Shown: positions 41,713 through 45,267 of the stretch, one piece after another
How positions within the stretch are numbered: the stretch's first letter is position 1
How the letters are laid out: every line of letters begins with the position of its first letter
NCBI GenBank assembly: GCA_036567965.1
Contig: DATCTN010000015.1
Location: 1 to 64,000, forward strand
DNA from: Candidatus Kryptoniota bacterium
GTDB lineage: Bacteria > Bacteroidota > Ignavibacteria > Kryptoniales > JAKASW01
Length of the DNA stretch: 64,000 nt
Direction: 5' to 3'
Program-made: the position numbers and the translations under genes
The notes under the pieces: model-generated
Seen by the model: the letters and a program-made list of their open reading frames with translations, nothing else
Databases searched by the model: none
What the model was told of the DNA's origin: nothing

Positions 41713-41720
41713 GAATTTCA
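41713..41720. repeat. 8-bp target-site duplication, left
   Basis: GAATTTCA directly before the left inverted repeat, repeated at 45260-45267 directly after the right one. Eight to ten base pairs is the normal range for IS1-family insertion. Confidence 0.85.
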
Positions 41721-41737
41721 GGTAGTGTCCTAATTTG
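41721..41737. repeat. Transposon terminal inverted repeat, left
   Basis: GGTAGTGTCCTAATTTG; exact reverse complement of 45243-45259. Weak similarity continues inward for roughly 25 bp at both ends (a GGTTGG-like and a G-rich stretch). Confidence 0.9.
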
Positions 41738-41759
41738 GATTGGTCGAGAAAGGTGGGGC

Positions 41760-42371
41760 TTATATTTTCAGTAGATCGATTTTCTCCGACTTCAGACGCC
41801 TTGAAATAACTCCCGCGGAAACCACAAATCTTTTGGAGATTTCGCCTGACACAAACTCTGCGAGTTCATCATTAAGTAGATTCTTGACTTGCCGTTTTGC
41901 CTCGTCAATCATCGGCTTCATTGATTTTACAGCACTAATGAGATCGGGTAGGGGAACCAGCAATCTTCCGGCGAATTCTCTGGCTTGGTATTCCGCGGTT
42001 CCCCACATGGCTCCAGGCAAATCCGCAATGGTTGTATGCCATTCGGTGAATGATCCCGAACGTAACGCCTTAATCTGCGTGGGGTGAAGAACAAAATGCC
42101 CGATCTCGTGTGCAATTGAAAACCGAAGTCGAAAGCTATAAGCGTTTGGGTCGTAATCAATTTCCTTAAGGTCTCCAGTCAAATATGCTTCGGCGCTAAC
42201 TTGAGCGAGCAATCCGACTATCGGAACCAGCTCCAACTCAAGCTCTTTTTCTGCGATTAAATCTACATTCACCGGAATAGAAGAATCCCAACAAGCATTT
42301 CTAATCACTTCCGCCATCTTCCAGATGTCGGCTTCGGATTTCCGCGGTACGGTTAATGAGCTGGGTATCAA
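41760..42371 (-). CDS. ImmA/IrrE-family metallopeptidase (transposon cargo)
   Basis: 203 residues with the zinc site HEIGHFVLH (H88, E89, H92) and a third-ligand candidate Glu132 in YQAREFAGRLLVP, the ImmA/IrrE (COG2856) pattern. ImmA cleaves a phage/ICE repressor and IrrE-type proteins control stress regulators; COG2856 proteins paired with Xre regulators have also been described as toxin-antitoxin-like modules. Here the partner is the Xre gene ending 2 bp upstream. Start is TTG at 42371 with AGGT upstream. The stop is 22 bp inside the left inverted repeat. Confidence 0.88.
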   Translation of the reverse strand: MIPSSLTVPRKSEADIWKMAEVIRNACWDSSIPVNVDLIAEKELELELVPIVGLLAQVSAEAYLTGDLKEIDYDPNAYSFRLRFSIAHEIGHFVLHPTQIKALRSGSFTEWHTTIADLPGAMWGTAEYQAREFAGRLLVPLPDLISAVKSMKPMIDEAKRQVKNLLNDELAEFVSGEISKRFVVSAGVISRRLKSEKIDLLKI

Positions 42372-42373
42372 GT

Positions 42374-42736
42374 CTACCTGTTCTTTAGAAGAGTGATGAG
42401 TTTATCCAATTCCTCTGGCGTTGGCTTGTCTCCCCGAATTGTTCTGAAAAATACCGGTAAGACCTCTAAGACTTCGGCATCTGAATAAGCTTCTTCCGGA
42501 AGCTTCATTTGGGAAATGGACGCCAAATCAAAGAATTTTTGCCACTCGGAAGAGCCATTCTTAAGCTGCAACACCGCAACAATTTCGTTCAGCTTTTCTC
42601 GATCATCGGTCACGCCAAGTCTATTCCTTTCAATTTTACTCCAATTGCTTGGGTCTACCTTTGCCAACAGGCAAAACTCCCTCAATCCGATGTTCAAAGA
42701 AAGCCTCCTCTGTTTAACGAATTCTCCGAACGTCAT
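42374..42736 (-). CDS. Xre-family helix-turn-helix regulator (transposon cargo)
   Basis: 120 residues. N-terminal HTH_3 domain: FGEFVKQRRLSLNIGLREFCLLAKVDPSNWSKIERN (about 3-38), i.e. helix 2-turn-helix 3 followed by the SKIER motif. The C-terminal half is helical and may contact the ImmA-like protease. Strong AAAGGAG before the ATG. It is divergent from the unknown gene at 42910 and presumably binds palindromes in the 173-bp shared regulatory region. Confidence 0.88.
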   Translation of the reverse strand: MTFGEFVKQRRLSLNIGLREFCLLAKVDPSNWSKIERNRLGVTDDREKLNEIVAVLQLKNGSSEWQKFFDLASISQMKLPEEAYSDAEVLEVLPVFFRTIRGDKPTPEELDKLITLLKNR

Positions 42737-42909
42737 AATATTCTCCTTTCAATAGTATTGAGAGGAAATAGCACAGTATGCTATTTGTTACGTGGTAAAG
42801 ATATACCACCAAATATTCAGGCGCAAACCACGATTTTCACGATTCGTGAAATTTCTCTTGACTTTTGGTTTTTCGTGTTGTAACTTTGAATCGAAAGGAG
42901 AAATGACTA
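42737..42909. promoter_or_regulatory. Divergent control region with three palindromes
   Basis: Between the Xre gene (minus) and the unknown cargo gene (plus). Palindromes: ATAGCACAGTATGCTAT (42768-42784, 6-5-6), GTGGTA/TACCAC (42792-42809) and perfect TTCACGATTCGTGAA (42836-42850). A plus-strand promoter candidate is TTGACT (42859-42864), 16-bp spacer, TAACTT (42881-42886), followed by AAAGGAG at 42895-42901. The last palindrome ends 8 bp before the -35, a sensible operator position for the Xre protein. Binding is inferred, not shown. Confidence 0.55.
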
Positions 42910-43563
42910 ATGGCTACTAAATATCCTCCCGCTTTGTCGTTTAGTGAGGCTCTTGTCGTCATCAAGAAGATGAAGGTAGATCATGGCAACGAAACTTCGG
43001 TAGAACTCATGCCCAAAGTTCTGAACATCTCCCCTAATAGCAGTTATCTTCCCCGCAAGATCGCTGCCCTCCAAGCTTTTGGATTGGTTGAGAAAACACC
43101 AAGCGACGATCTTGCTCTTACTGAATTAGCCCTTCAAATCATTAAGCCGATTGGAGATGAAGACAAAGAGGCAATATTAAAGGCATTCCAAAAGAATGAC
43201 GTCTTATCCGATCTATGGAACAAATATTCTGATGGCAAGTTACCCTCCGCAGAACAGACGCAACAAATCTTGATGAAGAACTACCAAATTCCAAGAGAAA
43301 CGGTTAAGCAGTGGTATGAATTCGTTATTGATTCCTTCCGGGCAATAGGAGGTGTTCAAACAGAAGATTGGCTTAAAGAAGCTAATGCGGTTCTTGATGC
43401 AAGAACTCCCCTCAGACAACACTATCAAAATTTTCTATTACCTACAGGAAGCAAATTTGAATTCAGTCTTCCTGACAATGTAACGATTGACGATTTCGAT
43501 TTTATTATTGGATTCTTTGAATTGAAGAAAAAGACGATAAGCAAAAATGCAGTTACAAAATGA
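42910..43563 (+). CDS. Unknown cargo protein, winged-helix-like, possibly DUF5343-related
   Basis: 217 residues, no signal peptide or membrane segment. The first half (about 8-90) reads like winged-helix DNA-binding or DUF5343-type sequence: SYLPRKIAALQAFGLVEK, then LALTELALQIIKPIGDEDKEAILKAF, a wing-type segment seen in plasmid and defence-linked proteins. The second half (95-217) is helical and unrecognised. ATG with AAAGGAG. It is divergent from the Xre/ImmA pair and precedes a hairpin-rich segment. It might be a toxin, effector or regulator; none is demonstrated. Confidence 0.7.
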   Translation: MATKYPPALSFSEALVVIKKMKVDHGNETSVELMPKVLNISPNSSYLPRKIAALQAFGLVEKTPSDDLALTELALQIIKPIGDEDKEAILKAFQKNDVLSDLWNKYSDGKLPSAEQTQQILMKNYQIPRETVKQWYEFVIDSFRAIGGVQTEDWLKEANAVLDARTPLRQHYQNFLLPTGSKFEFSLPDNVTIDDFDFIIGFFELKKKTISKNAVTK

Positions 43564-43568
43564 AATGA

Positions 43569-43795
43569 GCGGTCTTTCGACCGCCCAAACCAAATTGAAA
43601 GGAGGTGATTCTATGCGTTCCACCTGGGGCGAAGTCGTTGACTTCTTTGCGGGATTCACGACTTGCGCCCGTGCTATAATATAGAACCGCCCGCTTAAGG
43701 GCGGGCTTCATAGGTGCTGATACACCTACAAAGCCCTAATTCAGTTGCCCGCGTGAACGGACAATGACCTAATCGAATATAACGTTCATTGCGGG
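43569..43795 (+). other. Chain of four stem-loops inside the transposon
   Basis: Successive inverted repeats in a 265-bp gap: GCGGTC-TTTC-GACCGC (43569-43584), GCCCGC/GCGGGC (43689-43706), TAGGTG/CACCTA (43711-43728), and a longer bulged one with arms CCCGCGTGAACG (43748-43759) and CGTTCATTGCGGG (43783-43795). The last ends 33 bp before the transposase start. This could be a structured leader RNA limiting transposase expression, a small RNA, or terminators plus a regulatory site. Evidence is only the sequence symmetry. Confidence 0.5.
43613..43684 (+). CDS. Possible 23-residue peptide with consensus ribosome-binding site
   Basis: ATG at 43613 is preceded by AAAGGAGGTGATT, a full match to the anti-Shine-Dalgarno, with ideal spacing. 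The ORF has 23 codons (starting MRSTWGEVVDFFAGF) and stops at 43684, between hairpins one and two. It may be a leader peptide or a small toxin-like peptide. No family is recognised; the main support is the exceptionally strong ribosome-binding site. Confidence 0.4.
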   Translation: MRSTWGEVVDFFAGFTTCARAII

Positions 43796-43828
43796 AATTT
43801 CAAACTCCAAACTTGAAAGGCACTCGCA

Positions 43829-44668
43829 ATGAACACACTCTCACTCGAAAAGAAAAACTCAATTCTCTCCCTTCTCGCTGAAGGAAACTCAATTCGATCA
43901 ATCGAAAGAATTACAGGCGTTCACCGTGATACTATCATGCGTTTGCTCGTCCGGGCGGGAAAACAAGCGAAGGAGATCATGGAGGCACAAATGGTAAATC
44001 TACAATGCCGTTATGTTCAAGTCGATGAGCTGTGGGGCTTCGTAATGAAAAAACAGAAGCAATGCACCGATGAAGAAAAAAGAATCGGAAGATGGGGCGA
44101 TCAATATGTTTTTGTGGCTATGGATTCAGAAACAAAACTCGTCCCCGCTTTCAGTGTTGGAAAGAGAAATGCCGATATGGCTTATGACTTTATGAGAGAA
44201 TTGAAAATGAGAATTACAAACCGATTTCAGCTTTCCACGGATAAGTTCGCACCTTACTTCGATTGTGTTGACGAAGTATTTCACGACAATATTGATTACG
44301 GTCAAGTTCTGAAAATGTACGGCGAAGAAGGAAAGGGCGAAAAGCGGTATAGCCCCGCAAAGATAATAAAAGTCGAAATAACCCCCATGATCGGAAACCC
44401 CAAGAAAAGTCGAATCTCAACATCACACATTGAACGCCAAAATCTTACAATGCGTATGCAAATGAGAAGGTTCACAAGGCTTACAAATGCTTTCTCTAAG
44501 AAGCTGACAAACCTAAAATGTGCTGTTGCCCTTCACTTTTTCTACTACAATTTTATCCGCATTCATCAAACGCTTAGAGTAACCCCCGCTATGCAAGCCA
44601 AGGTTACTAATAGATTGTGGGATTGGAACGATTTGTTGAATTACGGGAAGGAGAGAATAGCGGCTTAA
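43829..44668 (+). CDS. IS1-like family DDE transposase
   Basis: 279 residues. N-terminal helix-turn-helix (about 3-45; EGNSIRSIERITGVHRDTIMRLL), then a DDE catalytic domain with Asp66 (VQVDELWG), Asp138 (STDKFAPY) and Glu202 (SHIERQNLTMRM). The RFTRLTNAFSKKL and YYNFIRIHQTLRVTPAMQA segments match the single-ORF transposases classed with IS1. It should move the 3.5-kb unit bounded by the inverted repeats. ATG with AAAGG upstream. No internal pair of inverted repeats closer to this gene was found. Confidence 0.92.
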   Translation: MNTLSLEKKNSILSLLAEGNSIRSIERITGVHRDTIMRLLVRAGKQAKEIMEAQMVNLQCRYVQVDELWGFVMKKQKQCTDEEKRIGRWGDQYVFVAMDSETKLVPAFSVGKRNADMAYDFMRELKMRITNRFQLSTDKFAPYFDCVDEVFHDNIDYGQVLKMYGEEGKGEKRYSPAKIIKVEITPMIGNPKKSRISTSHIERQNLTMRMQMRRFTRLTNAFSKKLTNLKCAVALHFFYYNFIRIHQTLRVTPAMQAKVTNRLWDWNDLLNYGKERIAA

Positions 44669-44734
44669 ATGTACCATGATGCTTGACATTTGTTTCCCGA
44701 TCTTGTTTATTTGTCTTCCGAAAGGAAACATAAA

Positions 44735-44989
44735 ATGATACCCTATGAACGTGATGAAGTTGCGGGAGTGTTAATGCATCTCCATGCGATTGCGAGCGAA
44801 GCCAAGTCCACAAAAGAAGTTGCAGACTATATCAAGAGGCTGTTACACTTTCATTCCTCTGGTGATTGGCGTAACATTCTTGAGAAGAAGGTTTTGTCTC
44901 CCCCTAAAAAAGATAAGTCGTCTTTTATTGCGATTGGTGGCTCGCATGGAATGGGCGAAAAAATCAAAAGTATGAAGTCCATTTCTTGA
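44735..44989 (+). CDS. Small cargo protein, unknown
   Basis: 84 residues. Start ATG at 44735 with AAAGGA 8 bases upstream; an in-frame start 15 codons earlier is less likely. The first half is helical (YERDEVAGVLMHLHAIASEAKSTKE); the tail is Lys/Ser/Gly-rich. It lies 66 bp after the transposase and its last 139 bp overlap the convergent gene at 44851-45183. No family recognised. Confidence 0.5.
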   Translation: MIPYERDEVAGVLMHLHAIASEAKSTKEVADYIKRLLHFHSSGDWRNILEKKVLSPPKKDKSSFIAIGGSHGMGEKIKSMKSIS

Positions 44990-45183
44990 ACAAATTTCGG
45001 GGTAAAGTACATTTCGTATGACCCATCATGTTTGACATAGCCGTAAATTGCAATGTCGCTGCTATCGTTAGCCTTATGTAAAAGCACCCATTGCCAAGCC
45101 CGTTGTTGAATTAATTCAGGAATTCCCTCTCGCATTTGAGCGAATGTAATTTCAATCTTGTACCATTGATTTCGTTTCAACAT
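44851..45183 (-). CDS. Small cargo protein, unknown
   Basis: 110 residues. ATG at 45183 with GGGAGG 7 bases upstream, a good signal. The first 70 residues read like a compact globular domain (QWYKIEITFAQMREGIPELIQQRAW... then alternating strands); the C-terminal part overlaps the convergent plus-strand gene in antisense. It begins 60 bp inside the right inverted repeat. No family recognised. Confidence 0.55.
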   Translation of the reverse strand: MLKRNQWYKIEITFAQMREGIPELIQQRAWQWVLLHKANDSSDIAIYGYVKHDGSYEMYFTPKFVQEMDFILLIFSPIPCEPPIAIKDDLSFLGGDKTFFSRMLRQSPEE

Positions 45184-45242
45184 TGATTAGCCTCCCATTG
45201 CCTCCCTTAAAATAGTTCCCCAAACCTTGAATTGCCAACCTT

Positions 45243-45259
45243 CAAATTAGGACACTACC
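45243..45259. repeat. Transposon terminal inverted repeat, right
   Basis: CAAATTAGGACACTACC, exact reverse complement of the left end at 41721-41737. Confidence 0.9.
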
Positions 45260-45267
45260 GAATTTCA
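45260..45267. repeat. 8-bp target-site duplication, right
   Basis: GAATTTCA, identical to 41713-41720. On the minus strand it contains the TGA stop codon of the small anti-sigma-like gene that starts at 45504. Confidence 0.85.

Follow-up and report, generated by a model that had tools for sequence, protein, structure and literature searches.

A passenger-carrying IS1-related transposon with exchangeable cargo and a conserved leader RNA in a Kryptoniota bacterium

Positions 41721-45259 of the window (the whole 64,000-nucleotide stretch of DNA analysed) are one transposon of 3,539 bp, bounded by perfect 17-bp terminal inverted repeats (TIRs) and inserted as a whole unit with an 8-bp duplication, as its anatomy, the target site duplication (TSD) and empty sites in sister genomes demonstrate. 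Very probably, the element is best explained as a passenger-carrying relative of IS1 with exchangeable cargo, in which a leader RNA would act as a switch on the transposase and an Xre/ImmA pair would control the cargo gene p217. We infer these control steps, along with transposition, RNA folding, leader-peptide translation and cleavage of Xre.

Insertion sequences with passengers are already known: transporter IS (tIS), in which passenger genes accompany an IS transposase, are established, as in IS1595 (Siguier 2009, via PMC3129680 and PMC7986276). They resemble our element in having one IS-type transposase and its passengers between one pair of ends; the element differs in its transposase family and in that every relative found in its clade has cargo. 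The clade that carries cargo by default and, above all, the leader RNA are absent from Rfam and did not turn up in the literature searched; the leader RNA is the part that we consider novel. Outside subscription papers, we found no article that deals with ISMhu11, with attenuation of an IS transposase by a leader peptide, or with Xre/ImmA or restriction-modification genes as cargo of IS1 elements.

Boundaries, insertion site and transposase family

The left TIR, GGTAGTGTCCTAATTTG (41721-41737, + strand), identified by end comparison and a genome-wide end search, is 100% complementary to the right TIR (45243-45259, - strand), and the 8-bp TSD GAATTTCA lies immediately outside each of them (41713-41720 and 45260-45267), which bears out the perfect repeats and duplication described in an earlier sequence-only reading of this DNA. 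Most relatives are likewise flanked by 8-bp TSDs. With up to two mismatches allowed, GGTAGTGTCCTAATTTG matches the 4.15-Mb genome solely at the element's two ends, and the host genome holds one transposase of this kind, so the element is single-copy. Its G+C content is 42.5% vs. 51% in the flanks. The insertion point is intergenic, with a DUF177-type gene on one side and an anti-sigma/sigma pair on the other (names read from the ORFs). In the congeneric genomes G010 and G009 these flanking genes are adjacent with no element between them, providing the empty site in sister genomes that the earlier reading had named as a check; the aligned point reads ...AATCAAGAAAGGC-CAAAATCC-GGTG... in G010 and ...AAGCAAGAAAGAC-GAATTTCA-element-GAATTTCA-GGTC... 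in the window. A tIS is recognised by unrelated passenger genes within one pair of IS ends that have moved as a unit, and here the TSD, the empty sites and the presence of the same cargo elsewhere in L027, an element of a congeneric genome, all agree with that definition.

As first read, the element combines a single IS1-like transposase with about 2.5 kb of other DNA. The one intact transposase ORF (43829-44668, +) encodes a 279-aa IS1-type DDE enzyme with the motifs VQVDELWG, LSTDKF and SHIERQNL. It matches Pfam DDE_Tnp_IS1 (PF03400) at 25.4 bits, over the cut-off of 24.1; its best NCBIfam match is the IS1 model NF033558, at 71.8 bits and under that model's cut-off of 100, and no IS1595 model matched. 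With the IS1 family of ISfinder, including its long single-ORF members, the element has in common the DDE transposase, TIRs starting with GG and a TSD within the 8-9 bp usual for the family. It differs in its single ORF beginning at the helix-turn-helix (HTH), with neither the InsA zinc finger nor the InsA/InsB frameshift (CxxC motifs are encoded upstream in some relatives: L068, L079, L084), in its structured leader RNA, and in its 3.5 kb with cargo (relatives, 1.85-5.15 kb), IS1 elements being compact (~0.7-1.2 kb) and carrying transposase only. ISfinder lists ISMhu11, a subgroup of single-ORF IS1 elements that can reach several kb.

Cargo across the clade

One scan of 84,980 species genomes for transposase relatives yielded 195, of which 80 were kept. 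Complete transposase-bearing elements with both ends, found by script and counting the window's own and loci from genome searches, number 68. Nearly all have an 8-bp TSD, and their ends start with GGTAGTG or a one- or two-base variant, most being GGTAGTGTCCTAATTTGA. These elements measure 1,852-5,150 bp (median 3.1 kb), and none of the 68 is a transposase-only copy: cargo is the rule in this clade. The sequence-only reading had suggested passenger-bearing IS1 relatives and proposed looking for other copies with the same ends; such copies exist, every one with cargo, and neither of the findings that it considered fatal, short transposase-only copies or cargo at the same place without the transposase, was encountered among the relatives. 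Host metagenome-assembled genomes (MAGs) of the relatives are labelled as ~15 phyla, with one archaeal MAG among them, labels that may include binning errors. The clade is widespread yet little described.

The constant part of these elements is shown by comparison of relatives to be the ends and a core of ~1.2 kb (leader RNA plus transposase), with exchangeable cargo on either side. In L027, which lies at another locus, the order Xre-ImmA-p217-leader-transposase is identical to that of the window, with identities of 83% (Xre), 64% (ImmA), 47% (p217) and 70% (transposase); this copy has its own 8-bp TSD, decayed ends and a frameshifted transposase. The Xre/ImmA pair recurs in one further relative, L025, together with an N6/N4 methylase and a MvaI/BcnI-type endonuclease (type II restriction-modification). 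L023, whose transposase is 77% identical, has in common with the window only the ends, leader and transposase, and the twin elements E1 and E2 of L151, from one genome, have a 1.2-kb leader-plus-transposase core that is 92% identical and unrelated cargo. To the question raised by the earlier reading, whether cargo is conserved or swapped, the answer is both: conserved in L027 and L025, swapped in L023, L026 and L151 E1/E2.

The right end of the window's element holds an 85-aa ORF with a Shine-Dalgarno (SD) site (44733-44989, +; doubtful) and a 110-aa ORF with the SD GGAGG (44851-45183, -), both called by ORF reading. The two short genes reported here earlier do exist as ORFs with SD sites; they overlap by 139 nt, no relatives of either were detected, and they are unproven as genes. 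Their lack of relatives, together with the ~0.8 kb typical of classical IS1 members, would suit a chance capture of host DNA by an ordinary short IS1-like element, an isolated case that represents no passenger-bearing lineage. Against this, none of the 68 complete elements is shorter than 1.85 kb, Xre/ImmA and p217 recur within related elements, and the cargo genes of the congeneric copy stand in the same order. With cargo in every close relative, the capture reading is refuted, and we give it almost no credence.

A survey of 144 cargo proteins from 50 elements returned mostly proteins of unrecognised function. Those recognisable include RmrA/P63C, type II methyltransferases, MvaI/BcnI, Tsp45I, Mrr, SocA and M78/CapP (PADLOC for capP). 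Many of these have defence or maintenance functions, and any enrichment of such functions in the cargo is an impression. A broad lineage of small single-transposase elements routinely carries regulators, restriction-modification and other defence-type genes, and such genes can therefore spread without plasmids, phages or composite transposons.

Two further features were observed among the relatives. Related elements stand in tandem in two independent cases (L024:207-9367 and L151:3388-9666), in the order TSD-E1-TSD-E2-TSD, with an identical 8-bp sequence occurring three times (AAAATTTT in L024, AAATATTC in L151), an arrangement that we read as one element having inserted precisely next to the end of another already present. 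An accessory protein of ~100 aa (LHGC..ESVPV.E.F.G.TVW.G.VEVFDL.GHP...YAW), not found in the window's element, is conserved in 28 elements, over half (e.g., L097:9318-9635, L094:9347-9643, L041:5756-6043); its confident model (pLDDT 93) is alpha-beta4-alpha, and comparison with the PDB gave no match.

The Xre/ImmA pair and p217

The Xre/ImmA pair and divergent gene noted in the first reading are both real. An ImmA/IrrE-like metallopeptidase (41760-42371, -; Peptidase_M78, 44.1 bits, cut-off 22) with a HEIGH motif adjoins an Xre-type HTH repressor (42374-42736, -), which matches HTH_19 at E 5e-4, under the cut-off, and whose homologues are paired with ImmA in relatives. Upstream of xre lies a putative operator, the palindrome GTGGTAAAGATATACCAC (42792-42809), which is also found in L027, L143, L144, L145 and L147 and imperfectly in L025. 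Sequence inspection places a putative promoter, TTGACT-17-TAACTT (42858-42886, +), before the divergent gene p217 (42910-43563, +), which has a Shine-Dalgarno site and encodes a 217-aa protein of a recurrent cargo family. The p217 HMM family has members in at least 11 related elements, spread over several phyla, and the AlphaFold model (pLDDT 84) is winged-helix-like with a C-terminal hairpin-helix; PDB comparison of this fold gave weak winged-helix or MarR/DtxR-like matches, none of them significant.

An HTH repressor beside an M78 protease of the HExxH type, with a shared putative operator, is the arrangement of ImmR/ImmA-type systems, and homology and the conserved operator support a regulated pair here. 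ImmR/ImmA of ICEBs1 and CapH/CapP of CBASS are repressor/M78 protease pairs with a palindromic operator; like them, the element has an Xre-type repressor, an M78 protease and a predicted divergent promoter with such an operator, whereas its pair sits inside a transposon and would control a winged-helix-like gene. We suggest that the GTGGTA...TACCAC operator lets Xre repress both its own operon and the divergent p217 gene, and that ImmA would cleave Xre to relieve repression, as in ImmR/ImmA and CapH/CapP. The p217 protein would then be a regulated effector or adaptor, whose benefit is probably maintenance or defence.

Xre/ImmA and p217 might instead serve chiefly as a toxin-antitoxin or anti-phage module whose benefit offsets the cost of keeping the transposon, a serious alternative that we nevertheless lean against. 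The cargo of relatives includes restriction-modification, SocA, RmrA and CapP-type proteins, and in two homologues (L127:913-2052 and L128:916-2085) a p217-type N-terminal domain is joined to a C-terminal extension, that of L127 weakly resembling nucleoside deoxyribosyltransferase (E 1.7e-4, under the Pfam cut-off), which suggests an effector link. However, profile and defence searches matched p217 to no known toxin or defence family, none of the element's proteins matched known toxin families, p217 is predicted to be winged-helix-like with no significant structural match, and its homologues also occur without Xre/ImmA.

The leader RNA and its proposed function

The hairpin-rich stretch between p217 and the transposase (~43613-43834), which had been taken for cargo, is instead the leader RNA of the transposase; it can be aligned across relatives with different cargo and belongs to the transposition module. 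In order, it consists of an SD-led short ORF, helices H1 and H2, a small hairpin H3a, the loop strand CCCGCGTGAAC and the strand GTTCATTGCGGG. The upstream ORF (uORF), with a strong SD, encodes the candidate leader peptide MRSTWGEVVDFFAGFTTCARAII (43613-43684, +). H1 (GCCCGC/GCGGGC, 43689-43708, +), found by alignment and covariation, has its 3' strand overlapped by the 5' strand of H2 (outer GGGCTT/AAGCCC, inner TAGGTG/CACCTA; 43703-43736, +; covariation reached in 0/500 shuffles). The covarying helix H3 pairs CCCGCGTGAACG with CGTTCATTGCGGG as a predicted pseudoknot (43748-43795, +). Strand GTTCATTGCGGG (43784-43795) can pair either with loop CCCGCGTGAAC, in the pseudoknot, or with CTCGCAATGAAC (43823-43834) in the transposase start region, an alternative start-sequestering helix of 12 bp (43784-43834, +; 0/200 shuffles, covariation 0/500).

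Comparative analysis shows a conserved, covarying leader RNA of predicted pseudoknotted fold, with conserved pairing. When 19 sequences were aligned with MAFFT without regard to structure, covariation of H2 plus the start helix, of H1/H2/H3 and of H3a exceeded all 500 shuffles and every slid control; the shuffles leave relatedness in, and the slid controls keep relatedness but are biased towards a structure derived from those very sequences. Of 18 leaders, 13 showed complementarity to the start region at p<=0.03 relative to shuffles, and the two states of the window's leader are 1.4 kcal/mol apart (nested-only folding). Among 28 leaders, 14 have an SD-led mini-ORF that ends at the edge of the RNA, vs. 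2.0 expected, with MSKVLKLI and W-G...GF...AR-II as recurrent peptides; about half of the leaders are without one, and some of these have another ORF ending there. A covariance model, R1, gave 24 confident matches in 294 genomes of the class (E 1e-27 to 1e-4), and 23 of these immediately precede a transposase; a brief calibration makes the E-values approximate, and matches L172-L174 (E 0.004-0.005) were judged to be chance. On the transposase tree, elements with the same type of leader group together (0/500 shuffles); the position there of the frameshifted L078 is meaningless. Searching Rfam with the element gave no relevant match up to E 5, and a tRNA scan of the window found none.

We propose, from these pairings, that the leader is a translational switch for the transposase. 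A ribosome would translate the leader peptide and halt at the 5' boundary of the leader's structured part. Strand GUUCAUUGCGGG would then pair either with the upstream loop CCCGCGUGAAC, forming the pseudoknot and freeing the transposase start, or with CUCGCAAUGAAC, burying the start codon, so that transposase translation would normally be low and would open only in particular circumstances, perhaps set by where the ribosome stands on the uORF. The transposase would act on the GGTAGTG... ends and insert the whole 3.5-kb unit. In translational attenuators of the erm/cat type, a leader peptide precedes helices that compete to expose or hide a start site; the leader's anatomy and covariation fit this pattern of peptide and mutually exclusive helices at the start codon, and it would differ in controlling a transposase. 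Other insertion sequences silence read-through transcripts, and the switch would also silence those arriving from the insertion site, which may be a simpler alternative role of the same structure. In ISPpu9, IS10, IS50 and IS200, transposase translation is held down at the mRNA, in ISPpu9 by a 5'-UTR structure that buries the ribosome-binding site (PMC8450116). The role proposed here is alike in restraining translation at the mRNA; unlike those systems, the leader combines a predicted pseudoknot and a candidate leader peptide with helices that exclude one another, a design shared by different genera and families, and we found no sequence kinship with them.

The exception among the R1 matches, L140 (L140:3358-5039), is a non-autonomous element of 1,682 bp with perfect 16-bp ends and the TSD CAATAAAA, which keeps a p217 homologue, the uORF and the leader hairpins and has no transposase. 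Because it keeps the leader without a transposase, the RNA may have another function or be a relic. L140, and a pseudoknot exceeding the needs of simple SD sequestration, might point to a trans-acting or guide-like RNA for transposition or for p217 rather than a switch. We consider this unlikely, given that 23 of 24 confident matches abut the transposase start, that covariation links the start codon to the strand complementary to it, and that many leaders occur without p217. Compared by eye, the leader bore no noticeable relation to the ends or targets, and the guide-RNA idea was dropped. The preferred reading, a translational switch, makes the conserved leader a directly testable model of transposase silencing by the element.

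Directly upstream of the transposase, a tRNA-like structure replaces the window-type leader in L034, L036, L038, L041, L045, L062, L067 and L088; a similar one occurs in L060 and L063 and, by T-arm scan, in L033, L076 and L090. It has a 7-bp acceptor, the T-arm GGTTCGA, a D-loop GG and an anticodon-like loop that is mostly CTTTACA, corresponding to a stop anticodon (UUA or CUA) in ~8/10. Several end in a 3' CCACC complementary to the transposase SD, and the structure does not qualify as an Rfam tRNA by gathering score. ARAGORN tRNA-like genes with odd anticodon loops (2-nt, 4-nt, CTA) lie inside three elements (L082:3310-3399, L029:7495-7580, L080:7628-7717). Given the tRNA-like version, one may ask whether transposons can sense translation. 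Tentatively, and with our judgement almost evenly divided, we suggest an undescribed class of transposon leader RNAs, in which leader peptide, competing hairpins and pseudoknot would control a cargo-carrying IS1-like transposase by start-codon capture, sister lineages using a tRNA-like structure with a stop-codon-like anticodon loop. If so, these elements would read the translational state of the host to decide when to jump with defence-type cargo.

In elements of Acidobacteria and Verrucomicrobia (e.g., L058, L073, L094), a TTGACA/TAATAC promoter upstream of the transposase takes the place of a leader RNA. A palindrome of the TGTAA/TTACA type overlaps this promoter, which suggests that a protein represses the transposase.
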